From Alphaproteobacteria bacterium (lineage in GTDB: Bacteria; Pseudomonadota; Alphaproteobacteria; Elsterales; Elsteraceae), in contig RDXE01000049.1 in the NCBI GenBank assembly GCA_004292755.1, positions 1 through 48,431 of the forward strand: DNA of 48,431 nucleotides, in the 5' to 3' direction. The translations under genes were made by a program, and so were the position numbers. Shown one piece after another: positions 1,470-21,022 of this stretch. Positions within the stretch are counted from its first letter, which is position 1; each line of letters opens with the position of its first letter. Under the pieces are notes generated by a model, which saw only the letters and a program-made list of their open reading frames with translations, made no database searches and was not told the DNA's origin.

Positions 1470-1615
1470 GGCCATCCTCTTTCTTCATTGAAATGAACCC
1501 CTTGGTCTTTTTTCAAGACGCGGCCGCGCAGACCAAGGAAAACCCAAAATACCATGGGGTTTCGGCCAACTGACCGAGCCCCCTGGTCTGGGTCGTCCTG
1601 CCTGTCCGGGCGGTG

Positions 1616-3085
1616 TCAGAATCGAAAGCTGACCTCCGCCTTCACGTAGGTTGCATCGCGGCCACCAGACGCAGTCAGCGCAGGGCCGGCCATGAGGTGG
1701 ACAGCCTCAAAGACAAGATCGGTCCCGCGGGCCAGAGTGGTCTCGACACGCACCTGGCCGTAGCTTCCGATCCGCAAGCCGCCGCTATTGCCTGCAGTGC
1801 CAGCGACTGGTGCAAGCGGCTGGGCGTAGACTGCGTCCTGCGCCGTTTGTCGCCACAACCAGCCCGCGCCGAGGTGGACGCGGGTGTTGGTGTATGGTGT
1901 CAGCGTCAGGTTGGGCTTGAGGTGAATCAGGTTCGCGAAGCCAGTGTAGCCAGCATCGGTGAAATAGCCGCCGCGGGGAAACAGTGGATTGAAGGTCGCA
2001 AGACGGCCGTCGCGTGGGTTGTCATCGCCGGAGGCGGCGTCAAACTGAAGGCCCAGGCGAGGGTTCCAGGGCAGTGCGGTCAGGCGCCAGCCCGCGGTGC
2101 TGCCGATCGCCCAGGCCCGCACCTCCCGGCCAGCGAAACGACCGCCCTGCAGCACAGCCTCGAGATCGGCGTCGAGCCCGCCATCCGCCCAGGTCACGCG
2201 TGCCCCAAGCACATCGCGGGTCTCATCCGCGCGCACGCCGCCGAAGCGCGCGCCATCGCGGTCATACCGGTAGCCGTAAAGGGCTGCGCCAAGGGCGGTG
2301 TTCGCAACTCGCGTCGCCTCGGCGCGCAAACCGATGAAGCGGATGTCGGCGTCGCCTTGATCGTCGAAGCCGCGTCGATCCCGGTTCTCAACCGGCTGAA
2401 CCGCAAAGGCTGTCAAGCGTGTGCTCGGCGCGGTCCAGTCGGCGCGCAGGCCGTCGAAGGCCTGGCGGACATTGGGCCCATTGCGCACCGTCACAAACCG
2501 CTGCGCATCAAAGCCAAGCTCCTGGCGGCCAAGACGGACCGTCACCGTACCTGTGCCCAGTGGGCCACGTACGTCGGCAAAGGCTTGCTGCAGATCGAGT
2601 TGGTTCTCGTCAGATGGCGCGAGCGGTTTGCGCTTGCCAGCCACCCCATGGCTGCCGAGTTCAAGAAAGACGCGGGCGTGCTCGCCAAGGCGCAGATCGC
2701 CGTGCAGCAGCAGCCGTGTGAGCAGGGCATCGTCGGCGTGCCGACGCGGCGCGAAGGGCAAGCCGCGCCGCTCATAGGTTGCACGCGCCTGCGCACCGAA
2801 GGAAAGACTAATGCCGTCAGCAAGTTCGAGGTGCTTGAGCCGGGCGATGGGGTCGCCTGCTGCCGCCCGCGCGGCGAGGCTGCGATAGTCCTCTTCCCAC
2901 CGAAACAGACGCGGCGGCGGTAGGTCCGTCGCAAGGATGGGGCTCGGCGCGAGCATCATGCCAATTGCGACTGCAAACCCCAGGACTCGAGGGCTGGTGA
3001 GGGCCGACGGCGCTCGCACGCAACCCGATGGAACGGTTGCGCGGGTCCTTCCGCCAACTCTCGTGACGCGATGCCTTGCCTGCAT
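1616..3085 (-). CDS. Alginate-export-family outer-membrane porin
   Basis: This is a predicted outer-membrane beta-barrel of the alginate export (AlgE-like) family. These proteins let anionic polysaccharides or other small solutes cross the outer membrane; many relatives are not alginate-specific. A hydrophobic stretch ending in an ILA-TD cleavage-like site lies near residues 33-53. Alternating hydrophobic/polar strands, many Gly/Arg/Asp turns and motifs such as RLGRQELGFDAQRF follow, and the protein ends in Phe as outer-membrane barrels do. The start is uncertain: ATG at 3085 gives a long basic leader, and GTG at 3019 would give a more usual signal peptide. The gene stands alone, so context does not identify a substrate. 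Confidence 0.8.
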   Translation of the reverse strand: MQARHRVTRVGGRTRATVPSGCVRAPSALTSPRVLGFAVAIGMMLAPSPILATDLPPPRLFRWEEDYRSLAARAAAGDPIARLKHLELADGISLSFGAQARATYERRGLPFAPRRHADDALLTRLLLHGDLRLGEHARVFLELGSHGVAGKRKPLAPSDENQLDLQQAFADVRGPLGTGTVTVRLGRQELGFDAQRFVTVRNGPNVRQAFDGLRADWTAPSTRLTAFAVQPVENRDRRGFDDQGDADIRFIGLRAEATRVANTALGAALYGYRYDRDGARFGGVRADETRDVLGARVTWADGGLDADLEAVLQGGRFAGREVRAWAIGSTAGWRLTALPWNPRLGLQFDAASGDDNPRDGRLATFNPLFPRGGYFTDAGYTGFANLIHLKPNLTLTPYTNTRVHLGAGWLWRQTAQDAVYAQPLAPVAGTAGNSGGLRIGSYGQVRVETTLARGTDLVFEAVHLMAGPALTASGGRDATYVKAEVSFRF

Positions 3086-4282: not shown

Positions 4283-7039
4283 TCAGCTCGGGATGGTCTT
4301 CTTGCGCAGGATCACCAAGTCCTGTCCACAAGCAAGACCTGGCAGGATGTCCAAGACGGCAAAGTTTGTTGTGAGCTGAGTGCGAATATAGTCAGTCGAG
4401 CGCAGAATGCGGCCACTCGCATTGTGCAAGCCTGTCTGCTGGGCAGACCGTAAATCCGCCTCGGATGTTTGATAAAGACAGGATTGCGCAAAGCCCTGAA
4501 CAGATAGGAGCAACAATCCATCAGGTTCCAGAAGGCGTTCCATTTCCCTCAACCACGCTTGCTCCGCTGCGTGATCCAGGTTGGTTACTGCGGAGAGGGC
4601 GATGATCAAGTCCACCTGCTGATCTGGATAGTCGAGGCTGGCCGGACCCGCCAGCTGCAAAACCTCCACCCCTGGTGTCGGGGACTGGGTGAAACTGGTC
4701 CGGCAATAGGTGACGAAATCGTCGTCGGACTCGGCACACACAAGATCGCTGACAAAGCGGATCAGGTATCGGGTGAGTTGTCCCGCCCGACAGCCCCATT
4801 CCAGCACGCGGCGAAAGTCACTCAAACCCCGACCGACCAAGGCTCGCAGGCAGCCATCAATCCGGTGGGCATTCGTGGCACCGCCCAGGCGAAAGGCCAC
4901 GGCATCAGGACTGCCGATGCTGCGGGTGAGGAGGTCTATGGGGGGCAGGGGTGCTTCGAGAGCTGGGTCCAGGAGATACCACGCGGTCCGATACGATGGC
5001 TGACTGTGCGGTCCAGCAAACCGAACATCCAGTGTCGCAACGCCATTGGGAAACAGGCTGCCATCCGGTGGACAGGCATGATGGATCTGGAACCGCGCCG
5101 AGCCCGCCTGCGGCAGCAGCCCAAAAAACGTCGTCAAGTCGGGCGATGGCAGCGGCCACTCCACGTGCGTGGCAGGAGCATCATTGACGACGAAGGTAAC
5201 GGTGGCCGGGTCTTCCCACACCGTCAGCAGCCATCCGCTCACGGTCAATCCAGCGTCGCTGAGCGACAGCGTGTGCGGCAGCCATCGAAGGTCACGCACG
5301 ACGGCCAACTGCATCTCTGCCTGTTCGGCACTGATCGGTGCCGGGGGCTGGTTGGATGGCGGACGGTGCTGGGTGAAGCCCTCTGCTGGTGGCGTGCGGT
5401 GGGCCACCACGGTGCACATCGGTACGGCCATACCATCCTCGACGCGCAGTTGAGAATGGTAACTGACCTCGGCATGCGGAAATCCAAGACACTCCAAGGC
5501 GCGCACCAGGAAGGCTGGAGAGAATGACCACCAAGTGTCGAACGCTGGCGCCTCCAGACCGGGCAGCAGCCGAATGACGGGTAGGGACCCAAGCGTTAGG
5601 TCAAACAGTTCTGTCACAATGATGGTGTTTCGCACCCGTGCAGCCACTCCCTCCAGGACTGAGAACGGGGAGCGTGTGTGCAAAAGAACCGCCGCAAACA
5701 ACCCGACATCAAAATCACCAAGCGTGGCCGGAAGGGTTTCTGGATCGGCTTCAATCAATGAGACCTTCGATTCATACAGGTGATGCAGATACCAGAAGCT
5801 GTTTCTGACGGCGATGATGTGCTGTTCATGGGTTTGGCGCCAGCGCTCACGATCCTGACCGCTTAGGGGAACACTGTCCCACAGGCGCTCCATGGAGGGC
5901 TCGATAGCAGTCACCGTTGCACCGGCCCGCTCCATGTGAAAGGAGAGATAGCCGCTGGCCGGGCCAACCTCCAGCACCGAGCAACCATCCAAAGAAATCC
6001 CCCCCAAATAGGCGGCTACGTTCGGTCGCAGGTCCCATTGCCCCTCGGTCGGCCCCTCGGGTAGGTCGACCCGGTGGTAGAAGCGGCACTCCTCTCGCAG
6101 GGGAGCGGGCTTGTGGATCCGCCGGAAGCTGCCGCGCCCGCCGGGGCGCACTGCTCGGCCACTGGGATCGCCCTTGCGCCACGCGACCCCAGTCCAATCC
6201 ACTTGGTCCAGTGGCGCGGTGATCCCATGGCGCGATCGGAAGGTGTCCACGGCTTCACGGCAAGGCGGGAGGGCGCCATAGTCATCAACAATAATGAAGC
6301 CGCCGGGGACAACCTTCTCATATAGGGCGACCAATGCGTCCATAGTCGATTCGTATAGATCACCATCTAGACGCAGCAATGCCAATTGCGTGATTGGGGC
6401 TGTTGGCAAGGTATCGCGAAACCACCCAGCCAAAAAGCAGACCTGATCGTCAAGCAGATCGTAGCGGTCAAACAGGTCCTGCACCCGTTCCAATCTAACC
6501 GCCAGGATCGGCTGATAGCGCGCACTCAGATCATAGGCGATGTCCTGACGGGCGGACGGTTCTGGCAGACCCTGAAAGGAGTCAGCCACCCACACCCGTC
6601 GGTGGGTCACCGCATGCGCAGCGAGATGCGCGCGCATGAAGATGGTTGCGCCGCCGCGCCAGACCCCGGTTTCAATGAAGTCACCTGGCAGACCCTCGTC
6701 ATGGATGATGTCGAGGCAGCGATGAAGGTGGTCCAACCGGCGGCGACCGATCATGGTGTGGCTGTGCTCCGCGAGATTGCGGGGGTCGAACAGCTCCCCG
6801 GTCGCTAGCTGCCAGTACACCATTTGGCCTTCGGCGCGCTGGGCGGCAAGATGGGCCACAATATCGGGTCGACCATCCGTGATGTTCCGAACAATCTCAG
6901 GATTTGGGCGCTCACCTGCTCGCTCACATAGCAGGATGTAGTGAAGAATTGCCTCAAGGTCTAAATAAAATTCGTTGAGCAGGGATTTTTTGACCAATCC
7001 AAGATAGCGCTCGGCAGCAGTGCGGTCTGCGGCTGTCAT
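4283..7039 (-). CDS. Three-part SAM methyltransferase (TylF-like plus two class I domains)
   Basis: A 918-residue protein with three separate methyltransferase-like regions. Residues about 60-290 match the TylF/macrocin sugar O-methyltransferase family: FIETGVWRGGATIFMR, then LRLDGDLYEST and GGFIIVDDYG, which hold the family's metal/SAM acidic residues. A second class I domain starts near 318 (VLEVGPASGYLSF at about 352). A beta-rich linker follows at about 585-690. A third domain (about 720-915) has the glycine motif VLEWGCRAGQ and an LLEPDGLLLLS strand. It overlaps the preceding gene by ATGA (7036-7039), so it is the last gene of the long minus-strand operon. The likely role is methylation of sugars added by the glycosyltransferases upstream. 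Whether all three sites are active cannot be told from sequence. Confidence 0.85.
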   Translation of the reverse strand: MTAADRTAAERYLGLVKKSLLNEFYLDLEAILHYILLCERAGERPNPEIVRNITDGRPDIVAHLAAQRAEGQMVYWQLATGELFDPRNLAEHSHTMIGRRRLDHLHRCLDIIHDEGLPGDFIETGVWRGGATIFMRAHLAAHAVTHRRVWVADSFQGLPEPSARQDIAYDLSARYQPILAVRLERVQDLFDRYDLLDDQVCFLAGWFRDTLPTAPITQLALLRLDGDLYESTMDALVALYEKVVPGGFIIVDDYGALPPCREAVDTFRSRHGITAPLDQVDWTGVAWRKGDPSGRAVRPGGRGSFRRIHKPAPLREECRFYHRVDLPEGPTEGQWDLRPNVAAYLGGISLDGCSVLEVGPASGYLSFHMERAGATVTAIEPSMERLWDSVPLSGQDRERWRQTHEQHIIAVRNSFWYLHHLYESKVSLIEADPETLPATLGDFDVGLFAAVLLHTRSPFSVLEGVAARVRNTIIVTELFDLTLGSLPVIRLLPGLEAPAFDTWWSFSPAFLVRALECLGFPHAEVSYHSQLRVEDGMAVPMCTVVAHRTPPAEGFTQHRPPSNQPPAPISAEQAEMQLAVVRDLRWLPHTLSLSDAGLTVSGWLLTVWEDPATVTFVVNDAPATHVEWPLPSPDLTTFFGLLPQAGSARFQIHHACPPDGSLFPNGVATLDVRFAGPHSQPSYRTAWYLLDPALEAPLPPIDLLTRSIGSPDAVAFRLGGATNAHRIDGCLRALVGRGLSDFRRVLEWGCRAGQLTRYLIRFVSDLVCAESDDDFVTYCRTSFTQSPTPGVEVLQLAGPASLDYPDQQVDLIIALSAVTNLDHAAEQAWLREMERLLEPDGLLLLSVQGFAQSCLYQTSEADLRSAQQTGLHNASGRILRSTDYIRTQLTTNFAVLDILPGLACGQDLVILRKKTIPS

Positions 7040-8085
7040 GATCCCGTGTCCTGTGTCGGCAGCGACCGGCTTGGCAGTACACCAGCCTGGTCGAGGGGAG
7101 GGGGCATCTGCGCACCGTTTGGGGCAGCTGCACCCGCGGGGTGACGGGAACGCTCTGGACCGGCGTCAAACCCATCGACGGATGCGCGCATCGACATGGT
7201 TTCCCCAACGCTGGCTGCGCGACCACAGCATTGAGTGTGCCACGCCAGCAGCGGCTCCAGCGCAGCGTCGGTGTTCGCCGTCAGGGCCAACTGCTGTTCC
7301 ACAGCAGCGCTATAGGGAAGATCGGCATAGGCAGCCAGCACGGCAGCTTGGCGCTGCTGCAGCACCCGCGAGGTGCGATCAAGACCAGTTACGACGGTCA
7401 AACCCGTTGGTGGCGCTGCCAGGGTGAGTATTTGCAAGTCTGGCCGCAGTGCCCTCAGACAGGGAACCAGCTTCCAAACATCGCCGGTGTAGAACCCGGT
7501 GGCGCGCTCTGGCTGGGCCGTGTGCTGGCTCAACGGCCAGGTGTCGTGCAGAACGATCACCCCCCCTGGCGTCATGCGTGCTTCCAGGGCAATGAAATCG
7601 TGCAATGCGGAGGCAAAGCAATGGTCGCCATCAATGAACGCCAGATCGATGCGCTGGGTGGCTTGCTGGAGCGCTGCAGGCAGGGTTGGCAGGACAGAAG
7701 CAAAGAACTCTTCACTCGTGACGCGGTAAACCTGCCCCTTGACGGGCAGCCGCGGCACATCGGCTGCGGGATCGATGCCGATAGCTAACGTGTCGGCCTG
7801 CACGAGGCCGAAGGTGCGGCCCGCCTCCACGCCGATCTCCACATAAACGCCCGGCTTGAGGGCGATGTGCAGGCGCGCCAGCCACGCCCGATAGTCTGGT
7901 CCTGGACGGCGCGCCAAGGACAGGCCGACATGTGCTTCAGGGATGTTTGGCTCCACCGCCAAGGCCTCGGTAAACCAGTGATCGGCTGCAGCGCGATCTC
8001 CGCGTAGCAAGGCGCGCCGACCTTCCAGCACCAACCGCCGCAGAGGCGCGGGCCAGGCAACGGTCAGCGCCAGATGCTCCTTCAC
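7036..8085 (-). CDS. TylF/Methyltransf_24-like SAM methyltransferase
   Basis: A 349-residue class I methyltransferase. A short TPR-like helix pair (about residues 15-60) precedes the catalytic region. The SAM loop is YVEIGVEAGRTFG (about 80), the acidic site LAFIDGDHC (about 150) and the HDTWP motif is near 180; this pattern is shared by sugar O-methyltransferases. The GTG start at 8085 is chosen because it overlaps the upstream stop as GTGA (8082-8085) and a GGAGGTG ribosome site lies 6 bases before it. The frame open to 8292 is only read-back into the neighbouring gene. Tight coupling to the giant glycosyltransferase gene suggests it modifies the same glycan. The C-terminal about 80 residues are low in complexity and rich in Pro/Ala. 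Confidence 0.82.
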   Translation of the reverse strand: MKEHLALTVAWPAPLRRLVLEGRRALLRGDRAAADHWFTEALAVEPNIPEAHVGLSLARRPGPDYRAWLARLHIALKPGVYVEIGVEAGRTFGLVQADTLAIGIDPAADVPRLPVKGQVYRVTSEEFFASVLPTLPAALQQATQRIDLAFIDGDHCFASALHDFIALEARMTPGGVIVLHDTWPLSQHTAQPERATGFYTGDVWKLVPCLRALRPDLQILTLAAPPTGLTVVTGLDRTSRVLQQRQAAVLAAYADLPYSAAVEQQLALTANTDAALEPLLAWHTQCCGRAASVGETMSMRASVDGFDAGPERSRHPAGAAAPNGAQMPPPLDQAGVLPSRSLPTQDTGS

Positions 8086-11000
8086 GATGGCACCTCCATC
8101 GCCAGCGGGTCCAAGCCGACGACGCGGCGCAACGTGCGCGCGAACTGGCTTGGGGTGTACTGCTGGGCGGCCCGCTGCAGCGCAGCGCTCTGCACTCTCT
8201 CCCAGCAGTCCCGCCGCTGGTAGAGCGTCGCCATTGCAGCAGCGAAGCCATCGGCGTCGTTGGCAACCAGAAGCTCCCGCCCCGGCATCCACCCCAACTG
8301 CCGCACCAGCAGATTGGTCGCGACAGCAGGAACACCCGCACAGGCCGCTTCAATCACTTTCAACGGCACGCCTGCGCCAAACCGCGTCGGCGCCAGGAAC
8401 ACCCGCGACCGGTCATACCATGGCGTCAGGTCGTCCACGCGCCCAACCAAAGTCACCTGCTTGGAGGCGAGGGCAGCGATTTGGCGTGACTTGCATTCAC
8501 CAACAATGGCAAGCGGGATTGTGGATCCCAGTGTCTCCTCAAGGCGTGGCAATACGTGGCGACACAGCCACAGCAACCCGTCCTCGTTTGGGCTGCCAGG
8601 CGTCAATGCTCCAACAAACAAGAACCCTGTGCGCGCATCGAAGGCGGGTGGCTGCGGGTTGGTCGCCATCGCATGGCACAACACATGAACCGATCGTGCT
8701 CCACCGCGAGCGAACAGCTCGGCTTCCCGTTCGGACACTGCCAGAACGCAATCGGCAGCAGCGGCCAACTCAAGCTCCGCAGTCACCAACTCCTGAGCGG
8801 CGTTCCGCCCCAGTGGCGCACCACGAACAGCAGCCGCACCAATGTCACGCAAGGCAAACAAGGCCTCTGCATCATAGATGACCGATAGGCCCTGAAACAG
8901 AAACGGTCGTCGGCGCCGAATATCCGCCACCAGCGCCATGTTTGGCGGCCGACTGACGATCATGATGTCATAGATGCCCCGGCGTTGCTCAAGGAACGCT
9001 TCCAGAGTGGTGGCGTGCTGGCCAAGCATGACTTCCGTGGTTTCGGGAACAGTGGCGTACACCTCCTCCCACGGCTCCTCACCGCCCCACAGCGGAAAGT
9101 ACGTCAAGTGGCAGCCAACCAGCGAGTGCAGCATCAGCCGCGTGCGTGGATTGCCAGCCCCAACCGCTTGGTGGGGAACGGTGTTGTCCAGCATCAGCAC
9201 CCGTGGTGCTGCGAGTGATGCCCAGCGGTCGCGCAGCGGCAGGGCCGCGGCAGGTGCTACCCGCTGGGTGAGAGTGGCGCGATGTCGGTCTCTAAACCGA
9301 TCCTGGTTCGCCCGCGTCATCGCCGCGGCGGCACCAGAGGAGACCGCGCTGCCACCTTCCAGGTGGGTCACCACCACAGCGGGATCATAGACGACGCGAA
9401 ATCCAGCCCGGCGTGCCCGCAGGCACAGGTCGGCATCTTCGTAATAGGCTGGCGCAAAGGCTTGATCAAACCCGCCAAGGCAGTCCCACACTGGTCGGCG
9501 GATCAGCAGGAACGCACCTGAGACATACTCGGCATCGCGCACGAACTGGAACTCTGGCTGGTCAGGATGACCACCCCGCCCGTACCCGGCGGCGGAGCCA
9601 TCCCGGTAGATCAGGCACCCAGCCTCCTGCAGTGTTCCATCCATCTGGATGATCCGGCCACCGACCACGCCAATCGACGGATCCTGCGTTAACCGCTTGG
9701 TCGCTGCGGCCAGTGCCCCGGCATGGGGCAGCGCGTCATTGTTCAAGAACAGGATGAAGCGTCCGCGTGCCAGTGCCGCTCCTTGATTGGCCGCCAGCAC
9801 AAACCCAACGTTTTCCTCATTGCGCAGAACGCTAGCGCCACGCACCCGCTTCAGCACGGCAGAGGTTTGGTCGGTGGATGCATTATCAACCACTATGGTC
9901 TCGAAGCTGACCCCCCGCTGATCTGCGAGGGCGCGCAGGGTCTGCAGCGTTAACCCCGCTTGATTGAACAGCACCAGAACGACCGACACCTCAGGTGGAT
10001 CCGATGACACTGGCAGCGCCAGATCCCCCTGATCGGCCAGCCAACGCGTTGCGGTGTGCTGTGCCAGCAGGCGGTACTGGGATTTCAAATCGCCTGCTGC
10101 GGCCACCGCCCGGATCACCGGCAGCCAGTCCATCCAGGCCTCTTCCAGCTGTGCTGTGATGCGGCGGGCATCCAACAGAGGCGATGCCGCAAGCCGGGCC
10201 CGCAGCCCGTGGCGCAACAGTGATAGCGCTGCCAGATCAGACGCGGTCGCGACTGCGACGCGGACATACTCTGCCGGGTCGTTCGCGATCCACGCCTCAA
10301 GCCCAGCGGCCGACAGAAGAGCGGCACCCTGCCTCGCGGCCATGCCTTTACCGGCCAGGGTGACCACCGGGACACCCATCCACAGCAGGTCCGCCAAACC
10401 GAGGCCGCCATTGGCGGGCACGGTGTCCAGGGCAATGTCGATATCATGGAACAGCGCAAAGTGCGCCCCGTAGGGCTTGTGCTGCCGGTACACCACACGA
10501 GCCTGCGGGATGTTCGCCGCAGCAAGGGCCGCCGCCACGCGGTGCCGAAACTCCCAATCCCGCCCATGACGGCCAATGATCACAAGGCGGGACATCGGTA
10601 CGGCGGCGAGTATCTGCACCCACAGGTCCAGGCTTTCGGTTCCAATCCGAAACCCGCGAACCACGCAGCCGAAGGTGATTTGGCCGGTGGTGGTCGCGAG
10701 GGAGGCGCGAACCGTGGGGGCGCCCAGCGGGGGTAGCCACGCCCATTGCCCGCCCCTCAGCGGCAGCACGGCCTCGCTGTAGAGCGAGCGTTCATCTGCA
10801 GGCAGAGCAACGCCGTCGCTGATCAACAGATCATAGACGCCCGCACCCGTGCACCACGCCCCGATCCAGCCACACTGCAGTGGTGCAAGGCGCCGACGCA
10901 GTGCCTGCAACACCAGCGCCTGGCCGTGGAATGGGTGCGGCCCCACAGTATCGACCACAACATCCATACCGTTGGCCGCGCAGGACGCCGCGAGATCATG

Positions 11001-13610
11001 GCCTGTCAACGGGTGCACCACCACGCGCTGGCGCAGATCGGCCGGCAAGGGTGCCGGATCATCGGTGTAGAGATGCAGTTGCACCACGGCTGGATCGTGG
11101 GCAGCCAGCACTGGCAGCAGCAGCCCATGATGGACATGGGTGGCAAAGTACGCCACGCGCAGACGCGCCTCCGGTCGACCAGTCAGTTGGTCAGATGCGA
11201 CGTCCAACGCGCGCTGGTGGGTCTGGCCGAACGTGCGGGCATGGGTCAGCCCCCAGTGGCGCATGCGGCGGGCAGTGGTCTCCGCGTCATCACGCCCGGC
11301 CATGGCGGAAAGGTAGATGGCGGCCAGCACAATATCGGGATCGCCTGGGAAAGCTGCCTCGGCAGCGTCGGCAACGCGCGCGGCCTCCTCCGCGTTGGCG
11401 AAGGCAGGCAACCATTCCAGCACAATTCGATACATCGCGCGGCGGCGGGCGAGCGGGATCAACCGAACGACGTCAGCGGCTGCACCATGCCCGGCCGCGT
11501 GAAGGCGGATAGCCACCACAGCAGCATCGTGGTTTTGGCGATCCGACAGCAATACCGCTCTGGCGCGCTGGGTGGCATCCTGCCACTGGGGGGATGGATC
11601 GCGCCCGTCTGCAGCCTCCACTGCGCCTGCGACCAACAACAGCCGCGCGGCTAGGGTTTGGACCCGATCTGAGGCGGGCTGTAGCACCGGTGCTTGGTCG
11701 AGACAGGCGATCGCCTCCCCCAAGCGACCCGTCAGGGCAAGGATTTCCGCATGCTCAATCCACCGATCCGGGTGATTGGGCGTTAAGGCAATCGCCTCAC
11801 GGGTTGCCGCCTCAGCCTCAATCAGCCGGTCGTCTGCGGCCAAAACCCAAGCGAGCTGACCCAGCACATCGCTGCGGCGTGGTGCAAGGCCGCGTGCCGT
11901 TCGCAAGGCTGCTTCGGCCTCGCTCAGCCGTTGTTGATTGTGGCGTAGGTGCGCGAGGCAGCGCCAACTCTCCGCCTCCTGGGGGGCGAGCGTCACCGCC
12001 AGCTCAGCGTGCGGCTCCGCCTCCGCCAGTCGGCCCTGTGCCTGCAGGGCAAAGCTGACCAGACTGCGCACTGCCGCTTGGTTGGGATCGAGCGTCAATA
12101 GGCGCTGACAAAGCGCCTCGGTCTCAGAGGCGGCACCCGCCTCCAGCGCCAGCACAGCGCTGTGACGCAGGGCGTCTGTGTTGTTTGGAGCAAGCCTGCG
12201 CACCCGCTGCGCCAGCAAGCGCGCGCTCCGCGCTCGACCCAGCTGGTGCAGGGCCACGGACAAGAACAACAAGACATCGGGATTGGCGCGGTCCGTCCGC
12301 AACAGCCTGTGCAGATGGGGGCGGGCGTCGCGGCCCTTATGCTGACCGATCAATGCCCAGGCCAGTTGGCGCCGTGCCAGTGCGTGATCGGGTGCTTGAG
12401 CCAGCACGCACTCCATCAGCCACGCTGCGTCGGCAGCTTGCCCCAGGTGCAGCAACACTTGAGAGCGCGCGATGACCGCCGGGATCAGCGCCGGGTCACG
12501 GGCGTGGGCAACAGTGAAGCAGTGAAGAGCTTCGCGCATCGCCCCGACGGCGCGGTTCAGCTCCCCCAGAGCATACCAACCCTCAGCCCAGGCGCCCCAG
12601 CGCTGCACCACCGCATTGGCAACCACAAATGCCTGGGGCAGCGAGCCGAGTGTTCGCAAGACCAGCACGTGGGCGACCTGCAGACCAGGATCGTCTGGAT
12701 GTTGCGCCACGCCTGCCTCCAGCAGCGCAGACGCTTCTTCGACCCGACCGGCTCGGCACAGTGCCGTCACCAATCGACGCCGCGTAGACGCGTTGCGCGG
12801 TTCGCTGGTGAGGGCATGCTGCAGCAGGGTGATCGCCGCCTCGAGCATGCCCTGCTCGCTGAGCAGGTGGCCCAGCTGGGCAATCCGATGGGGGAGAGGG
12901 GCGCGGCGCGCGATGGTGTGCGCCAAGTCGATCGCATCCCCCAACCGTCCCATATCCGCCAACACCCATGCCAGCGAAACGGCTGCTTCATCAAGTGCGG
13001 GGTCGAGCACCAGAGCGCGATTCAACAGCGCTGCTGCGGCATCCAAGTCCCCGCTGCGCGCACGCACGTGGCCGAGATACCAGGTCAGAGTTGCGTCATT
13101 GGGATGACGGATCAGGGCCTCGGTGAGGGTGGCTGCTGCTTGTTTCAAATCGGTTTGGGCCTGGAACCAGCCCAGTGCGGCCGCGACCGCGCTCACATCG
13201 CCATGATGGCGGTGAGCATAACCAGCGTGATGAAGGGCAGAGGCGAGATCGTCAGCTCGAAACGCGGCCCAAGCCAGGGCAAGGCGGGCGTCTACATTGC
13301 TGTCGTCTACCGTCAGCACAGCGCGAAACAGGGCCTGCGCAAGGTCGGCGCGGCCAAGGGTCTGTGCCTCCTGGGCCCGGGTCAGCAGGCGTTCCGCGAT
13401 CGTTGGCACCTGACGCAGCACGGTGAGCAGGTCATAATCCGGGATCAAGTCGGCCGGGTCGCAATCGGGAACAAACTGGGCGTGCGGTGCTGCCAACGCC
13501 AACAGCAAGGGCGCGTTGGTGGCCCTATCCTCCGCCACGGCAGTGGCCAGCGCTGACCAATCCCCAGCGTTAAGGCAATCCCTCACAAGCTGAAGGTCTG
13601 GATGCATCAT
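8082..13610 (-). CDS. Giant TPR, OGT-like (SPINDLY), GT2 and GT4 multi-glycosyltransferase
   Basis: An 1842-residue cytoplasmic protein with four parts. Residues about 1-700 are tetratricopeptide repeats. Residues about 760-1170 resemble the bacterial O-GlcNAc-transferase/SPINDLY (GT41) catalytic region: RLRVAYFATHVHHG, an ITFGC strand, DIALDTVPANGG and LWMGVPVVTLAG. Residues about 1205-1430 form a GT2 (WbbL-like) domain with VVDNAST, FLNNDA and the YYEDADLCLRARRAGF segment. Residues about 1450-1842 form a GT4/GT1 domain with FVGALTPGSPNEDG and GAGVPLKVIEAACAGVP. GT41 enzymes attach a sugar to Ser/Thr of proteins, with the TPR superhelix holding the substrate. The GT2 and GT4 parts could extend the glycan. 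It starts 40 bases after a stand-alone GT4 gene and is coupled to two methyltransferases. Domain calls are strong; the acceptor is unknown. Confidence 0.9.
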   Translation of the reverse strand: MMHPDLQLVRDCLNAGDWSALATAVAEDRATNAPLLLALAAPHAQFVPDCDPADLIPDYDLLTVLRQVPTIAERLLTRAQEAQTLGRADLAQALFRAVLTVDDSNVDARLALAWAAFRADDLASALHHAGYAHRHHGDVSAVAAALGWFQAQTDLKQAAATLTEALIRHPNDATLTWYLGHVRARSGDLDAAAALLNRALVLDPALDEAAVSLAWVLADMGRLGDAIDLAHTIARRAPLPHRIAQLGHLLSEQGMLEAAITLLQHALTSEPRNASTRRRLVTALCRAGRVEEASALLEAGVAQHPDDPGLQVAHVLVLRTLGSLPQAFVVANAVVQRWGAWAEGWYALGELNRAVGAMREALHCFTVAHARDPALIPAVIARSQVLLHLGQAADAAWLMECVLAQAPDHALARRQLAWALIGQHKGRDARPHLHRLLRTDRANPDVLLFLSVALHQLGRARSARLLAQRVRRLAPNNTDALRHSAVLALEAGAASETEALCQRLLTLDPNQAAVRSLVSFALQAQGRLAEAEPHAELAVTLAPQEAESWRCLAHLRHNQQRLSEAEAALRTARGLAPRRSDVLGQLAWVLAADDRLIEAEAATREAIALTPNHPDRWIEHAEILALTGRLGEAIACLDQAPVLQPASDRVQTLAARLLLVAGAVEAADGRDPSPQWQDATQRARAVLLSDRQNHDAAVVAIRLHAAGHGAAADVVRLIPLARRRAMYRIVLEWLPAFANAEEAARVADAAEAAFPGDPDIVLAAIYLSAMAGRDDAETTARRMRHWGLTHARTFGQTHQRALDVASDQLTGRPEARLRVAYFATHVHHGLLLPVLAAHDPAVVQLHLYTDDPAPLPADLRQRVVVHPLTGHDLAASCAANGMDVVVDTVGPHPFHGQALVLQALRRRLAPLQCGWIGAWCTGAGVYDLLISDGVALPADERSLYSEAVLPLRGGQWAWLPPLGAPTVRASLATTTGQITFGCVVRGFRIGTESLDLWVQILAAVPMSRLVIIGRHGRDWEFRHRVAAALAAANIPQARVVYRQHKPYGAHFALFHDIDIALDTVPANGGLGLADLLWMGVPVVTLAGKGMAARQGAALLSAAGLEAWIANDPAEYVRVAVATASDLAALSLLRHGLRARLAASPLLDARRITAQLEEAWMDWLPVIRAVAAAGDLKSQYRLLAQHTATRWLADQGDLALPVSSDPPEVSVVLVLFNQAGLTLQTLRALADQRGVSFETIVVDNASTDQTSAVLKRVRGASVLRNEENVGFVLAANQGAALARGRFILFLNNDALPHAGALAAATKRLTQDPSIGVVGGRIIQMDGTLQEAGCLIYRDGSAAGYGRGGHPDQPEFQFVRDAEYVSGAFLLIRRPVWDCLGGFDQAFAPAYYEDADLCLRARRAGFRVVYDPAVVVTHLEGGSAVSSGAAAAMTRANQDRFRDRHRATLTQRVAPAAALPLRDRWASLAAPRVLMLDNTVPHQAVGAGNPRTRLMLHSLVGCHLTYFPLWGGEEPWEEVYATVPETTEVMLGQHATTLEAFLEQRRGIYDIMIVSRPPNMALVADIRRRRPFLFQGLSVIYDAEALFALRDIGAAAVRGAPLGRNAAQELVTAELELAAAADCVLAVSEREAELFARGGARSVHVLCHAMATNPQPPAFDARTGFLFVGALTPGSPNEDGLLWLCRHVLPRLEETLGSTIPLAIVGECKSRQIAALASKQVTLVGRVDDLTPWYDRSRVFLAPTRFGAGVPLKVIEAACAGVPAVATNLLVRQLGWMPGRELLVANDADGFAAAMATLYQRRDCWERVQSAALQRAAQQYTPSQFARTLRRVVGLDPLAMEVPS

Positions 13611-13649
13611 GGGAGGCCTCTGGCGAGCAAGGACGGGGTGACCGCGCGG

Positions 13650-14672
13650 TCAGACGCGGCAGCGCGCAACATGGGCGTGGATCTGCTCCAGCGCGCCGAT
13701 CAGCGCCTGCTCGCCCAGGCTGAGACGGTGGGCTGCATTGGCGAGGGCAGCTGCAGAGAGCCGCGCCCAATGCGCCACATCGAAATAGAGTTGGCGCAAG
13801 GCGGAACTCCAATCGCTGTCTGCGGCGTCCAAGTCCAGAATCACTCCTCCCTCCCCAACAGCTTCAGGTAGACCGCCACGACGGCTGGTTATACACGGCA
13901 CACCACTTAGCTGCGCTTCAATTACGGTGCGGCCAAACGCTTCTTCCCAAACACTCGGCATGAGCAGGATACGACTGTTGGCGTACAGGGCTGGCATGTC
14001 GTCGGTGGCAACCCGCCACTCGACATTCGCGAGCGCACCGAAGCGTTGGAACAGCCAGCGTCGCCAATCGAGGTCCGTTGTCCAACTTTCCACAATCACA
14101 AACGGCAGATCGGGGTTGGCCGCGGCCAGTCGCATGACCCGCTCCAAACCCTTCTCGGGGATTGGATTGACAAAGAGAATCCGATCCCCAGAGGAGGTGC
14201 CGCGATACCGGTCCCCCCGAATGACGGGGGGCAACACGACGCACTGAATGCCAAAAAAATTCCACCACCGCTCAGCAGTGAACCGAGAATTGGCAAAATA
14301 CAGAATGCGCGGGTCCGGCGGCAGAATACCGCCAATTCGATGAAGTTCGACATTGTGAAGATAAACCGCCGTGGGTCGGCCAGTCTCCACGGCGTCTGCC
14401 AAAAGATTGGCGACAGATCGCCCACTTTGGATCAGTACCAGGGCCGCATTCACATCGCGTGCGAGGGGCGCCAGCTGATGGTCTGGGTGTTGGGCGCGCA
14501 CGATGGAAACGCCGGACAAGACCTCTCGACAGTCGGATTTGTCCGTTCCGCACAGCAGAGTGACGCCATACCCGCGCGCGGAGAGCGCATGGCACAGGTC
14601 GTCGGTGCTGGTCTGCAATCCCCCCCGCGTTTCCGGAAGATGCGGGTGGGAGGAGCAAACCAGGATGTGCAT
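13650..14672 (-). CDS. GT4-family glycosyltransferase
   Basis: A 340-residue retaining glycosyltransferase with two Rossmann-like halves. The N-terminal half begins MHILVCSSHPHLPETRGG, a usual glycine-rich donor/acceptor loop. The C-terminal half contains LFVNPIPEKGLE and the E-x7-E region EEAFGRTVIEAQLSGVP, which binds the nucleotide-sugar diphosphate. No membrane segment is seen. It starts 7 bases after the FecR-domain gene ends and lies 40 bases before the giant glycosyltransferase gene, so it belongs to the same transcript. It probably adds one sugar of the glycan; donor and acceptor are not predictable. Confidence 0.88.
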   Translation of the reverse strand: MHILVCSSHPHLPETRGGLQTSTDDLCHALSARGYGVTLLCGTDKSDCREVLSGVSIVRAQHPDHQLAPLARDVNAALVLIQSGRSVANLLADAVETGRPTAVYLHNVELHRIGGILPPDPRILYFANSRFTAERWWNFFGIQCVVLPPVIRGDRYRGTSSGDRILFVNPIPEKGLERVMRLAAANPDLPFVIVESWTTDLDWRRWLFQRFGALANVEWRVATDDMPALYANSRILLMPSVWEEAFGRTVIEAQLSGVPCITSRRGGLPEAVGEGGVILDLDAADSDWSSALRQLYFDVAHWARLSAAALANAAHRLSLGEQALIGALEQIHAHVARCRV

Positions 14673-14679
14673 CGCCCTG

Positions 14680-15573
14680 CTACGAGGAGACTTGAACAGT
14701 CTGGGTGCGAACTGTCGTTGCTAAGGTTTGCCGTTCGGTGGTGCCAATCGAGTCCGACCGGGTGCTGGAGATTGTGCTGCCAACCAAGGTTGACGTGCTG
14801 GAACTCAAGCGATCATTGGCAATTGCCGATGGGGAACTAGCGGGCTGATTGCTGCCGCGGTCACTGGTTGCAATCAAGGGGGTGGTTGGTCCCGGTGTTG
14901 AGACTGGTGATCCGGTATTTCCGGGTCCGGGATTGGCCTCAAACCGGCTGCTAATCTGGGTCAACTGCTGAGGCGGGATTCGCTGTGGGCTGGTTGGGCC
15001 GCCGTTGTTGGTCGACACACTGAATCCCGGCCGCACCACGGACTGAGTGCTGCCGTTCGAGCCAGACACGCTCATCTGTTGACCAAATAAGAATGTCGCT
15101 GTGGTTTGAGTTGGGGTGGACTGCACCATCGTGATGCCACCCAAAATCTCAACAGTTGCATCACTGGTGCGAATGCGCGTGGGGTTGGTTTTGCTGTTCA
15201 GGCCACCGACGACACGCACGCTGCCGGCGCTCAACATCAAGCCGATCTGCCCGGATCGGCTCTGAGGGTCGTGGGTGAACTGGTCGACGGACAACACGGA
15301 GTCCGGGCCAATCGTGATGGACGATTGGTCCAAGAACAGGATGTGAATCACACCCTCCGGCCCAGTGCGAAACGACGCGCCGACGCGCACGACGTCACCC
15401 AACACAACCGACACTTGGTTGGTCTGATCCGCTGGATTGGCTTGTGTGGAGGCCAACACGCCCGTCACGACGCCTGCCTGATCACTCGCCGAGGCAGCCA
15501 TCGGGGTGGTCGTCATCGCGCTGGTGAGGGCCACGGCTGCGAAGAGCCAATCTTTGGAGTCTGCTGGTGCCAT
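14680..15573 (-). CDS. Exported FecR-domain protein with Ser/Thr-rich tail
   Basis: A 297-residue protein with a signal-peptide-like N-terminus ending near SASA (residues about 26-29). A FecR domain follows (about 50-150), with the typical GDVVRVGASFRTG and LFLDQSSITIGPDS segments. The final hundred residues are low in complexity, mostly Ser, Thr, Pro and Asn, with no hydrophobic anchor. FecR domains of this exported type occur with outer-membrane and CHAT-type proteins and are thought to be periplasmic or surface structural modules rather than iron regulators. It sits between the TPR/barrel gene (57 bases) and a glycosyltransferase gene (7 bases). The tail is therefore a plausible glycan acceptor, which is inference. 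Confidence 0.85.
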   Translation of the reverse strand: MAPADSKDWLFAAVALTSAMTTTPMAASASDQAGVVTGVLASTQANPADQTNQVSVVLGDVVRVGASFRTGPEGVIHILFLDQSSITIGPDSVLSVDQFTHDPQSRSGQIGLMLSAGSVRVVGGLNSKTNPTRIRTSDATVEILGGITMVQSTPTQTTATFLFGQQMSVSGSNGSTQSVVRPGFSVSTNNGGPTSPQRIPPQQLTQISSRFEANPGPGNTGSPVSTPGPTTPLIATSDRGSNQPASSPSAIANDRLSSSTSTLVGSTISSTRSDSIGTTERQTLATTVRTQTVQVSS

Positions 15574-15630
15574 GGTCGTGCCGTCCAGTCTAGGTGGTGG
15601 GAGACTGTGTGCGCTGGCGAGGCGACTGGG

Positions 15631-17007
15631 CTAGAACGTCCATAGCAGCCCTCCCCAAGCGCGCACGTTCCGATAGGCGTAGTTGGCTACGTTCGAGTGG
15701 GTGTCCTGGTATTCAACGCTGAAAATCGCAGAAACGCGGTCCAGCAATGGAATGACCTGACTGGCCCCAATCGCCCATTCGGTGTCAGCGCGCGTTGTGC
15801 CTGGCTTCACCGACGGGTCCGGTCCGGCATAGGTCCGCTGCCCGATGACTGTGTAGAGACTGGTACCCCACACCCGGTCGCCACCACCAAACGGGTTGGT
15901 GAAGTTAAAATTGTAGCTGACCCTCAATTCAGGGCCGAGGAAGGAGAAATAATCGCGTTCAGTGCTGCGATGACGCACGGTAAGATCGGTGGTTAAGGCT
16001 TGTAGCGCAGTCACCTCCAGGATCATACGCAAACGTAGAAACTGCTCATAACCACTTTGCTTTTCGGACTCTGTCGTGTCCGAACGCTTGGCAAAAACAG
16101 TGCGACGGACGTCATAGGTTGTACCGATGACAAAGCCGCCATTCTCAACCCGGTAGTTTAAATCCACACCGCCACCGGCGGCCGCCATGTACTGACGTCC
16201 GTCCAACAGCAATTCGGAGCCACCAAGATAAGGCCGCAGAGTGAGGTTCGGTAGATCAAGCGGTGCAGGTCGGAAACGAACGCCTGTGGTAAAGCTGCCC
16301 GCAGCCAAATCACGGGGGTCTGTTTTGATCCGCGTGCTGTCGTAATCAGCCCCGTTCTGATAGCGATTGACGAAGAAGCTGCCCGTTGTGACCAGGGTCG
16401 CGCTATCTTGGGACTGAAAGTCCAGTTCATGCAGGGCTTCGGCACTGAAGAACACATCAGCGCTCGGCTTGCGGCCTTGATTGGCGGGTCGGGTGTAGGG
16501 GACGCCCGCTGCCAACAACCGCTCGCTGTTGGCAGCAGCTGTCGGGTTGGATTGACCGCGCAGGCCAATCGTCAACGAGCCCGTGAAGAGGCTGCCGCTC
16601 GCCGTGCGTCGCGCCACATCTTCCAGCAAGCGCCCGGCGACGTCGCGCAACTCCCCGGTCAGGCGCGGATCGGCGAGCGCTCGGCGCAGATGCACCTCCG
16701 CCATCTGGTAGGAGGCGACGCGATAATAGAGCACGCCCAACTCCAGCCGAACCGATGGCGGCACGGTTGGGTCCAACAGCAGGCGCTCCATCGCGGCAAT
16801 ACCGCCTTCGAAGTTACCCGCTGCCACCAACAACCGTGCATAGGTCTGACCGATGGCCAAGTTCCCAGGGTTGCGCAGAACCTCCTGGAACGCCGCATCA
16901 ATTTGGGCAGAGGTGTTCGCAGTTGCTGGCACCTGCGCCGCACAGGGCACACCAGAGAGACCGAGGATGCTGATGACCAAAGCGAAGGTCGGAGCGCGTG
17001 AAGTCAT
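15631..17007 (-). CDS. TPR plus outer-membrane beta-barrel protein (SLAM/DUF560-like)
   Basis: A 458-residue exported protein. The signal peptide ends near PCAAQ (about residues 20-25). A helical TPR-like region covers about 30-140, with LGVLYYRVASYQMAEVHL as a clear repeat. From about 140 to the end come beta strands of a barrel closing with Trp-Thr-Phe, the C-terminal aromatic usual for outer-membrane proteins. This architecture is that of surface lipoprotein assembly modulators and related TPR barrels, which move partner proteins to the cell surface. It is the first gene of the operon. Its immediate partner is the FecR-domain protein, which would be the natural client. Family membership is by architecture only. 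Confidence 0.78.
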   Translation of the reverse strand: MTSRAPTFALVISILGLSGVPCAAQVPATANTSAQIDAAFQEVLRNPGNLAIGQTYARLLVAAGNFEGGIAAMERLLLDPTVPPSVRLELGVLYYRVASYQMAEVHLRRALADPRLTGELRDVAGRLLEDVARRTASGSLFTGSLTIGLRGQSNPTAAANSERLLAAGVPYTRPANQGRKPSADVFFSAEALHELDFQSQDSATLVTTGSFFVNRYQNGADYDSTRIKTDPRDLAAGSFTTGVRFRPAPLDLPNLTLRPYLGGSELLLDGRQYMAAAGGGVDLNYRVENGGFVIGTTYDVRRTVFAKRSDTTESEKQSGYEQFLRLRMILEVTALQALTTDLTVRHRSTERDYFSFLGPELRVSYNFNFTNPFGGGDRVWGTSLYTVIGQRTYAGPDPSVKPGTTRADTEWAIGASQVIPLLDRVSAIFSVEYQDTHSNVANYAYRNVRAWGGLLWTF

Positions 17008-17404: not shown

Positions 17405-18400
17405 CTATCCTGCAAACCGGCGTCGCTCTAGTTCTGCTTCGATAAGTCTTGAGACTAGAGAGTCAAATTTGGTCTCTGCGCTCCAATCTAGCACTTCACG
17501 AGCTCGCCCAGGGTTAGCTGCGCTATAATATATGTCTGAGGGTCTTTGTAATGTCTTGTTGATCTCGATGTGATTTTCCCATTGAAGATTGACTTTCGAG
17601 AACACCTTTTTTACGAACTCCTCCAGCGTATGGGTCTCTCCTGTTGCGATGATCAGATCCTCTGGGGAACTCGATTGAAGCATCCGTGCCATTGCGTCGA
17701 CATAATCAGGTGCCCATCCCCAGTCACGCGCAATTGACAGTGTCCCCAGTGTCAACTTCTGATATTTGTTATCAGCAATATCCAGTGCGCCACGAACAAT
17801 CTTCTGGGTCACGTAGCGAGCTGGACGCAGGGGCGACTCATGATTGAACAAAATGCCTGAACACGCGTACAGCCCATAGGCTGCGCGATAGTTCGCAACG
17901 GCCCAAAACGCCGCGGCTTTGCCCACTCCGTAAGGGCTGCGGGGCTGAAACGGTGTGGCTTCGGTGGCTGGTCCAGCCTCGGTATTGCCATAGCATTCGC
18001 TGGAGGCCGCATTATAAAAGCGCGTCTCAATCTTCAAAAAACGTATTGCCTCCAAGATGTTGAGAGTGCCGACGATACCGCCATTGATCGTATCAACGGG
18101 CTGATCAAACGATAGTGCAACGGAAGATTGACCGGCAAGGTTGTATATTTCATCTGGCTGCACATGTTGGATCACCTCAATCACACTCCGAAAGTCCGTC
18201 AAGACTGCAGAATGCAGCGTGATGGAGGGAAAGAGATTCAGGTGATGTAGGTTTGCAAAGCTTGTTATCTCCTTATCGCGGGATGTACCATGAACAAGGT
18301 AGCCGTGATTCAATAAAAGCTGCGCAAGATAGGCCCCATCCTGACCAGAGATGCCAAAAATCAACGCTATTTTGGCAGTTGCAATCTTTTTGGATGACAT
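17405..18400 (-). CDS. gmd: GDP-mannose 4,6-dehydratase
   Basis: An NAD(P)-dependent short-chain dehydrogenase that converts GDP-mannose to GDP-4-keto-6-deoxymannose, the entry to fucose, rhamnose and perosamine-type sugars. The nucleotide-binding motif is FGISGQDGAYLAQLL near residue 14. The catalytic region has SSECYG, then SPYGVGKAAAF, and the diagnostic ILFNHESPLR follows. At 331 residues it is slightly shorter than the usual 345-375. The start at 18400 puts the Rossmann strand at the normal distance; the frame open to 18493 adds an unrelated leader. Codons are clearly more A/T-ending than in neighbours, suggesting separate acquisition. It probably supplies the deoxysugar for the nearby glycosyltransferases. 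Confidence 0.88.
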   Translation of the reverse strand: MSSKKIATAKIALIFGISGQDGAYLAQLLLNHGYLVHGTSRDKEITSFANLHHLNLFPSITLHSAVLTDFRSVIEVIQHVQPDEIYNLAGQSSVALSFDQPVDTINGGIVGTLNILEAIRFLKIETRFYNAASSECYGNTEAGPATEATPFQPRSPYGVGKAAAFWAVANYRAAYGLYACSGILFNHESPLRPARYVTQKIVRGALDIADNKYQKLTLGTLSIARDWGWAPDYVDAMARMLQSSSPEDLIIATGETHTLEEFVKKVFSKVNLQWENHIEINKTLQRPSDIYYSAANPGRAREVLDWSAETKFDSLVSRLIEAELERRRFAG

Positions 18401-18533
18401 GATGATCAAGTCCCAATGGCCGCAGGGTCCTCTGTGCGAGCTTGGTATCTCACCACTGTTTTTGTCTCTTCGGCAATGGCATCCGCCTGACATTGCCGTG
18501 GACTAACGTTACGCTCACGGACAGGAGGTCTCG

Positions 18534-19463
18534 ATGACGGATCAAGCGACAGCGGTCACCGGTTTTACGACTGCCGTTGATGCTGCCTGGGGCGACCCAG
18601 CGGTGTGGACTGCCCATGGGCAGCAATGGACCCATCTCGACCGCGTGCGCCAAACGATCAACCGTCGGGTCACGGGTGACCCGCACGTTGCTCCACTGAC
18701 ATGGTTTTTTCGCGCGGTGGACCAGGAGCACGGCCTTCCCCTGACGCGCGTGCTGGTGCTGGGCTGCGGGTCCATGGGCATTGAGACGGAGATTGCCCTC
18801 GCCGGCTGGGCACAGGACATCATCGCCATCGACCTGTCACCGCGTGCCCTCGCCATTGCTGCGGCCAAGAGCCAAGCCGCCGGACTAACCTCGGTCACCC
18901 ATATGCAGGCGGATATGAATGCCCTGCCGCTCGGCGCACATGGCTTTGAGCCTGGCAGCTTCGATGCCATCATCAGTATTTCGGGAGTTCATCACTGCGC
19001 AAATCTAGAAGGGTTGTATGCCGCGTGTGCAAAGTTGTTGAAACCACAGGGTTGGTTTTACCTGGATGAATTTGTGGGTCCCAGCCGCTTTCAGTGGCCT
19101 GAGGTTCAAGTCGGTTTGATCAACGGGTTCCTGGCGGCCTTGCCAGAGGCGTATCTGCGAACTGCCCACGGCCACATTCGTCGGGGCTATCTGCGACCGA
19201 CTGTTGATCAAGTGATCGCCGTCGACCCAAGTGAGGCTGTGCGCTCCACGGATCTGTTGCCTCTCCTGTCCTTGTGGTTTTCCGTTCACGTGGTGCGTGG
19301 GTATGGCGGGAATCTGCTGCATCTGGCCTTGGCAGAGATCGCTCAGAATTTTCATACGGATCAGGATGGCTACCTCGAACGGTTGATCGACTTGGAGGGT
19401 TGGTGCTTGGCCGAGCGTCTGCTGGTGGATGATTTCGCTGTGATTATGGCACGGAATCGATAG
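18534..19463 (+). CDS. Class I SAM-dependent methyltransferase
   Basis: A 309-residue methyltransferase with the SAM loop VLVLGCGSMGIETE (about residues 72-85), an acidic IAIDLS strand and the ISISGVHHC motif 4 region. A C-terminal half of about 130 residues may recognise substrate. A strong AGGAGG ribosome site precedes the ATG. It is divergent from the GDP-mannose dehydratase gene and lies 58 bases upstream of the WcbI-like gene, with which it probably forms an operon. Substrate is likely a sugar or polysaccharide end, from context only. Confidence 0.85.
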   Translation: MTDQATAVTGFTTAVDAAWGDPAVWTAHGQQWTHLDRVRQTINRRVTGDPHVAPLTWFFRAVDQEHGLPLTRVLVLGCGSMGIETEIALAGWAQDIIAIDLSPRALAIAAAKSQAAGLTSVTHMQADMNALPLGAHGFEPGSFDAIISISGVHHCANLEGLYAACAKLLKPQGWFYLDEFVGPSRFQWPEVQVGLINGFLAALPEAYLRTAHGHIRRGYLRPTVDQVIAVDPSEAVRSTDLLPLLSLWFSVHVVRGYGGNLLHLALAEIAQNFHTDQDGYLERLIDLEGWCLAERLLVDDFAVIMARNR

Positions 19464-20461: not shown

Positions 20462-21022
20462 TCAGCGCTCAGCCCGTAGATACTGGTACAAAGTCTCCCG
20501 GCTGATACCGAACTCGCGGGCGAGCTGGGCTTTCTTTTCTCCCAGGGCGGCACGGCGGCGTAACTCCGAGACACGGTCGGGGGTGAGAGCCTTCTTGCGA
20601 CCGCGATAGGCGCCGCGCTGCTTGGCCAGTGCGATTCCCTCCCGCTGGCGCTCGCGGATCAAGGCGCGTTCAAACTCGGCGAAGGCCCCCATGACCGAAA
20701 GCATGAGGGTCGCCATCGGCGAATCCTCGCCGGTGAAGATCAAGTGTTCCTTCACGAACTCAATGCGCACGCTGCGCTGGGTGAGCCCCTGTACCAAACG
20801 GCGCAGGTCGTCGAGGTTGCGCGCGAGGCGGTCCATGCTGTGCACCACCACGGTGTCGCCCTCGCGCACGAACGCCAGCAAGGCATCCAACTGCGGGCGC
20901 TGGGTGTCTTTGCCCGAGGCGCGATCGGTAAACACCTTGTCGACTTGGGTGTGCTCCAACTGCCGCTCCGGGTTCTGGTCGAAGCTGCTGACGCGGACGT
21001 ATCCGATGCGATGTCCCAGCAC
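20462..21022 (-). CDS. Serine recombinase, Tn3-type resolvase
   Basis: A 186-residue site-specific recombinase. The catalytic Ser is in YVRVSS (S12). The family motifs VVVHSMDRLARNLDDL and FAEFERALIRERQREG follow, and a C-terminal helix-turn-helix (about 145-186) ends the protein. The length is that of Tn3-family TnpR resolvases. The start is GTG with a GGGGATG ribosome site. No transposase, terminal inverted repeats or other Tn3 parts are visible, so it is either a transposon remnant or a stand-alone resolvase. It is convergent with the WcbI-like gene. Confidence 0.9.
   Translation of the reverse strand: MLGHRIGYVRVSSFDQNPERQLEHTQVDKVFTDRASGKDTQRPQLDALLAFVREGDTVVVHSMDRLARNLDDLRRLVQGLTQRSVRIEFVKEHLIFTGEDSPMATLMLSVMGAFAEFERALIRERQREGIALAKQRGAYRGRKKALTPDRVSELRRRAALGEKKAQLAREFGISRETLYQYLRAER

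Follow-up and report, generated by a model that had tools for sequence, protein, structure and literature searches.

The stretch of DNA analysed here (the window: 48,431 nucleotides, contig RDXE01000049.1 of assembly GCA_004292755.1, from an alphaproteobacterium of the Elsteraceae) sits in a nearly complete genome of 4.2 Mb and carries, at 4283-17007, six co-directional open reading frames on the minus strand. Their products, called P1 to P6, are predicted to bring together an outer-membrane barrel, an exported FecR protein, glycosyltransferases and methyltransferases; they are listed below with two adjoining genes, all coordinates being window positions.

15631-17007, minus strand: P1, 458 residues; predicted signal peptide, about three tetratricopeptide repeats (TPRs) and 14-stranded outer-membrane beta barrel, similar to SlipAM and the type XI secretion system (T11SS)
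14680-15573, minus strand: P2, 297 residues; FecR-domain protein with an atypical signal peptide and a disordered, Ser/Thr-rich tail ending in Ser
13650-14672, minus strand: P3, 340 residues; GT4-type glycosyltransferase, predicted cytosolic, with an EX7E motif in its sequence
8082-13610, minus strand: P4, 1842 residues; fused TPR-GT41-GT2-GT4 glycosyltransferase
7036-8085, minus strand: P5, 349 residues, GTG start; Methyltransf_24 methyltransferase, whose orthologue adjoins P4 in relatives
4283-7039, minus strand: P6, 918 residues; TylF O-methyltransferase fused with two more methyltransferase modules
17405-18493, minus strand: GDP-mannose 4,6-dehydratase (GMD), which adjoins P4 in a relative
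18534-19463, plus strand: class I methyltransferase, divergently oriented and conserved with the cluster (matches of 265-319 bits at 11 loci)

Intergenic gaps of 57, 7 and 39 bases separate P1 from P2, P2 from P3 and P3 from P4, while P4 and P5 have a GTGA in common (8085-8082) and P5 and P6 an ATGA (7039-7036), the true start of P5 being the GTG at 8085 and not that of a longer frame. The original prediction of a six-gene operon is thus borne out as to the six frames, the two overlaps and the first two gaps, the third having been given there as 40 bases; likewise, the Pfam matches in the six genes (FecR; GT4; TPR-GT41-GT2-GT4; Methyltransf_24; TylF and further methyltransferase modules) agree with its description of P3 to P6 as glycosyltransferases and methyltransferases that include a SPINDLY/OGT-like module. 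An operon of just six genes is nevertheless too narrow a definition, since two further genes recur in other loci: both the GDP-mannose dehydratase (17405-18493) and the divergent methyltransferase (18534-19463) belong to the conserved unit. The dehydratase likely serves the supply of donor sugar, and its position next to the cluster suggests that the donors may be 6-deoxyhexoses.

About 85,000 named genomes were scanned with the P3 family, and the surroundings of the 25 loci obtained were then annotated. The genes for the barrel, the FecR protein and the P3-type GT4 enzyme are adjacent in 23 distinct loci of alpha- and betaproteobacteria and of one gammaproteobacterial metagenome-assembled genome (MAG); barrel and FecR immediately precede P3 in Magnetospirillum molischianum, a Rhodospirillum MAG, Delftia, Rhodoferax, Methyloversatilis, Hydrogenophaga, Acidovorax, Parazoarcus, Ramlibacter, Polaromonas, Azospira and others, and the giant P4, P5, the modules of P6 and the methyltransferase of 18534-19463 are present in most of these neighbourhoods. 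Chance adjacency is ruled out by the recurrence of the same neighbours in 23 distinct loci across classes. At least four different gene arrangements occur among the loci; all cluster genes are co-directional in most betaproteobacteria, P4 and the barrel gene diverge in Rhodospirillum, M. molischianum and a relative (G003), P4 lies upstream in one Rhodoferax, and the middle (second) module of P6 stands as a gene of its own in four loci and is fused to the P3 glycosyltransferase in four others. That gene order has been reshuffled and the company kept argues for function. Independence of the FecR/barrel pair from the glycosyltransferases in relatives, named at the outset as the observation that would speak against the proposal, was looked for, and the outcome does not count against it: the genes travel together across classes.

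P4-type GT41 domains reach 510-627 bits with their own family profile and the next GT41 proteins at most 275, so that they are readily told from other members of the family. Exactly one such domain is found in 15 of the 19 genomes reached through P3; two of the remaining four have no barrel or FecR protein next to P3 either, and the last two are MAGs. The domain is otherwise rare (2/289 genomes in a class sample, 1/200 in the order of an Acidovorax, this being the query's own, and 1/398 in a phylum sample, this being the window's own), and none lacking barrel-FecR-P3 was seen in these evenly drawn samples. In a relative of the same family (G005), barrel-FecR-P3 lies on contig C26 and methyltransferase-GMD-P4-P5-P6 forms a separate cluster on contig C32. 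Two modules, one of barrel, FecR protein and GT4 enzyme, the other of sugar dehydratase, TPR-GT41-GT2-GT4 protein and several methyltransferases, keep company across classes, even when unlinked. In the P4 tree, the G005 protein is grouped with that of the window (66% identity; Shimodaira-Hasegawa-like approximate likelihood ratio test, SH-aLRT, 90), and in the P1 and P3 trees G005 falls outside the pair formed by the window and Rhodospirillum; the window resembles the C32 cluster of G005, as if barrel-FecR-P3 had been inserted there between GMD and P4. A genome of the same genus (G001) has FecR paralogues of the unlinked kind only. The patchy distribution suggests that the cluster has probably spread horizontally.

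The assignment of P2 rests on a FecR domain (PF04773, 34 bits against a cut-off of 24) and on a predicted fold that matches, at residues 52-212, the periplasmic domain of PupR (6ovk, E 7.7e-8); this domain is the only one, being followed by a tail of about 85 residues (213-297) which is disordered in the predicted structure, and no TbpB_B_D barrel is present. Since P2 has no Cys at all, it is not a lipoprotein. The FecR proteins linked to the cluster have in common an odd, conserved signal peptide, with the N-terminus K/N-D-W-W-x-A-A-A (MxPxxxKDWWxAAA) and a cleavage site of the A-x-A type. Four positions of the tail (T236, P244, R255 and S297 in the window protein) are invariant or nearly so. 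The terminal residue is Ser in 25/25 distinct linked FecR proteins, a count which does not stand for independent events, these sequences being related by descent, as against 0/15 barrel-paired FecR proteins without glycosyltransferases and 2/29 unlinked FecR proteins overall. The serine is encoded by TCC (19), TCT (3) or TCG (3), after positions that vary. An origin as a side effect of overlap with a start codon (TCATGA) is excluded, since no TCA codon occurs at this place and the following gene begins further downstream, clear of the FecR frame. General Ser/Thr richness is likewise ruled out as the shared feature of the tails, their Ser+Thr content ranging from 14 to 37%, and it is the terminal Ser which is shared. 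A cluster-specific tail ending in serine points to the FecR protein as the putative acceptor of the glycan, a role which these sequence features support.

The AlphaFold2 model of P1 (mean predicted local distance difference test score, pLDDT, 84) has 6 helices at 32-135, followed by 14 long strands at 139-457, and the structures that it matches best are CymA and OmpG, barrels of 14 strands (Z 20-22). The window protein itself stays below the cut-off of 22 for SlipAM (PF04575), which six of its homologues pass (38.9, 29.1, 24.4, 23.6, 22.2 and 22.1); a sequence search of the PDB returned almost solely TPR proteins. No Slam structure is among the Foldseek/VIA matches listed for P1, generic porins being found there instead, an absence which decides nothing. 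P1 was also considered as a PgaA or BcsC, and was rejected as such, having no Pfam or NCBIfam match of this kind and none to polysaccharide-secretin families. Model and homologues together suggest that P1, with its TPRs and 14 strands, is of the SlipAM (Slam, type XI secretion) kind. A quick tree of 59 barrels sets the 23 that are linked to glycosyltransferases apart as one clade, on one side of a branch (SH-aLRT 99). Alphaproteobacteria also commonly have related barrels that lack glycosyltransferases, and FecR proteins often adjoin these. A second barrel/FecR pair of the same genome, without glycosyltransferases (L044:9416-12074; G000:C18), has a FecR protein that ends in ...PTRP and not in Ser. 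Moreover, FecR proteins of about 900-970 residues occur in other Alphaproteobacteria (L057:6260-10466, L058:7542-11796, L054:9719-12400 and L055:7581-10487); two stand directly beside a SlipAM-like barrel, two have a weak C-terminal TbpB_B_D match, one adjoins a CHASE2 adenylate cyclase, and their features suggest type XI cargo that has so far escaped recognition.

None of the enzymes P3 to P6 has clear membrane helices, which fits a stepwise route in the cytosol. The GT41 domain of P4 (PF13844, 78.8 bits against 25) comes with TPR repeats and is nearest to the Thermobaculum OGT (TtOGT, E 2.6e-42), then to SPINDLY and XcOGT; many of its positions are invariant across 14 members of the P4 family. 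Lys842 and the Thr-Thr pair of human OGT, which we take to be the canonical UDP-sugar-binding residues, are replaced throughout the family, by Arg where OGT, SPY and XcOGT have Lys and by [GCS]L in place of the pair, and most other GT41 proteins of the same genome keep Lys and T[ST] at these positions. Judged by its sequence, the P4 domain is a distinct branch of GT41; the changed donor site means that it may use another donor, which we consider probable, or be a binding module. TylF-type methyltransferases, to which part of P6 belongs, act on sugars in known pathways. Elsewhere in the genome (L059; G000:C2:215001-234000), a flagellin-like gene lies between GT41 proteins of 1023-1039 residues, two of which keep the canonical donor-site residues; this locus is likely a flagellin glycosylation island.

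Taken together, the cluster is read here, with a probability of about 50%, as a patchily distributed and probably horizontally spread locus for the display of a glycoprotein, in which a methylated glycan would be built on the FecR protein and shown by a barrel of its own. P4 would use its TPR arm to bind the FecR protein in the cytoplasm, and on the disordered tail of the latter the GT41, GT2 and GT4 domains of P4, together with P3, would assemble a short chain; the likeliest site would be the invariant C-terminal serine and/or an L-[IL]-[SA]-T motif of the tail. The TylF-type and other methyltransferases would then cap the sugars, after which the protein would cross the inner membrane by means of its signal peptide, and the SlipAM-type barrel, with its TPRs and 14 strands, would hand it on to the surface, such display being suggested by the family of the barrel. 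The original proposal of a methylated glycan on an exported FecR protein is thus upheld in part, by the gene linkage and, for the acceptor role, by the cluster-specific terminal Ser.

Several observations weigh against this reading. The FecR protein has no C-terminal barrel, though one is typical of T11SS cargo; the signal peptides of the linked FecR proteins are atypical in having no positively charged n-region; the modification of a C-terminal Ser is known from periplasmic oligosaccharyltransferases (PMC12645811), none of which is in the cluster; to these are to be added the altered donor site of P4, the likeness of the P1 model to exopolysaccharide secretins, with BcsC and PelBC ranking top in Foldseek, and the existence of barrel/FecR pairs without glycosyltransferases elsewhere, including the same genome. 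A more specific version, namely a type XI-like system in which FecR receives, on its C-terminal serine and from a cytosolic, lipid-independent complex of GT41 type, an oligosaccharide with multiple methyl groups before its SlipAM-type surface display, is to be regarded as doubtful, though not far-fetched; if true, the type XI-like cargo signal would be other than the TbpB barrel, and the acceptor site would be the last residue of the protein.

The donor-site changes might also mean that GT41 in P4 has lost its catalytic activity and does no more than bind substrate, transfer being left to GT2, GT4 and P3. This variant, compatible with glycoprotein display, would account for the consistent replacement of canonical residues across the P4 family, but the replaced positions and their neighbours are themselves conserved across classes, which suggests changed rather than lost activity and makes it rather unlikely. 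It has further to be asked whether the cluster exports a glycan, a methylated oligo- or polysaccharide leaving through the TPR barrel as in BcsC, PelB or PgaA, with FecR as periplasmic adaptor. The Foldseek ranking is compatible with such a role as far as the fold goes, and TPRs, a barrel and several glycosyltransferases do occur together; nonetheless, no inner-membrane synthase, flippase, polymerase or ABC transporter is recognised among the recurrent genes, P3 to P6 are devoid of clear membrane helices, the barrel is 14-stranded and, through its homologues, matches SlipAM and not the BcsC_C or PgaA families, and the C-terminal Ser specific to the cluster would be left unexplained, so that we hold this explanation improbable. 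No better can be said of the view that the enzymes modify another surface molecule (flagellin, pilin or lipopolysaccharide) with the barrel and FecR as a linked sensor or envelope component. In its favour, FecR domains usually receive signals in the periplasm, some barrel/FecR pairs have no glycosyltransferases (one such pair adjoins a CHASE2 cyclase), and GT41 enzymes flank flagellin in this genome; against it, no recurrent gene for flagellin, pilin or lipopolysaccharide was seen in the cluster loci, no sigma factor adjoins the cluster, and the linked FecR proteins have a conserved tail and terminus of their own.

Among known systems, the closest in logic to the proposed display of a glycosylated FecR protein is HMW1A/B/C of Haemophilus, where a cytoplasmic GT41 enzyme modifies an exported protein before its export via an outer-membrane barrel of its own (PMC3983070); here too, exported protein, barrel and GT41 share one locus, and the claim that no such system had been described was therefore too strong. 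The parts are different: HMW1A/B/C has a TpsB barrel with POTRA domains, a large two-partner secretion adhesin as cargo and simple hexoses on Asn, whereas in the present cluster the barrel is SlipAM-like, with TPRs and 14 strands, the cargo would be a small FecR protein, and a four-part set of glycosyltransferases is joined by several methyltransferases, the GT41 domain alone being shared. In type XI secretion (Slam/TbpB; SlipAM, DUF560), too, an exported protein comes with a barrel of TPRs and 14 strands, SlipAM there and SlipAM-like here, but FecR has neither the TbpB-like C-terminal barrel of its cargo nor a lipobox; neither a FecR nor a glycosyltransferase partner is described in the T11SS surveys PMC8406197 and PMC12282271, the latter of which raises possible glycosylation of T11SS cargo. 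FlmG of Caulobacter is a modular cytosolic enzyme that glycosylates flagellin and has an N-terminal substrate-binding domain (PMC7591256), an organisation resembled by that of P4, predicted to be cytosolic, with its putative exported substrate; the donor of FlmG is pseudaminic acid and its substrate flagellin, and P4 has three transferase domains. A C-terminal serine is the O-glycosylation acceptor of pilin in TfpO/PilO (PMC12645811), yet there transfer occurs in the periplasm, en bloc, from a lipid carrier and by a WaaL-like enzyme, and no WaaL-like O-oligosaccharyltransferase is found among the window neighbours scanned. As for FecR signalling through sigma and anti-sigma factors, the FecR fold is common to both, but P2 begins with a signal peptide in place of a cytoplasmic anti-sigma domain, and no sigma factor, of FecI type or other, is found among the neighbouring window genes scanned. 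A literature search for FecR with SlipAM, or for FecR with a glycosyltransferase and SPINDLY, returned no described system; the job that this cluster most likely does, the display of a glycosylated exported protein via its own outer-membrane channel, is known so far only from systems built differently.

Just past the boundary of the cluster, a resolvase gene (window 20462-21022) is possibly the trace of a mobile element, and at 22009-23760 there is a CHAT-domain (caspase-like) protein without other Pfam domains. Downstream of the operon (75-3085), a porin of Alginate_exp type adjoins a protein of the leucine carboxyl methyltransferase type, and conservation of these with the cluster was not seen.

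The cluster joins two poorly understood areas, namely the cargo of SlipAM/type XI systems outside host-associated bacteria and the targets of bacterial OGT-like enzymes, in a compact gene set found in culturable bacteria (Methyloversatilis, Azospira, Parazoarcus, Magnetospirillum molischianum and Acidovorax). A sharp prediction follows from it, namely that one small protein should bear a methylated glycan, on its tail or on its last serine, and that this glycan should depend on one giant glycosyltransferase. If this is true, it would provide a ready glycosylation tag, and the idea embodied in HMW1A/B/C would have been invented independently a second time.

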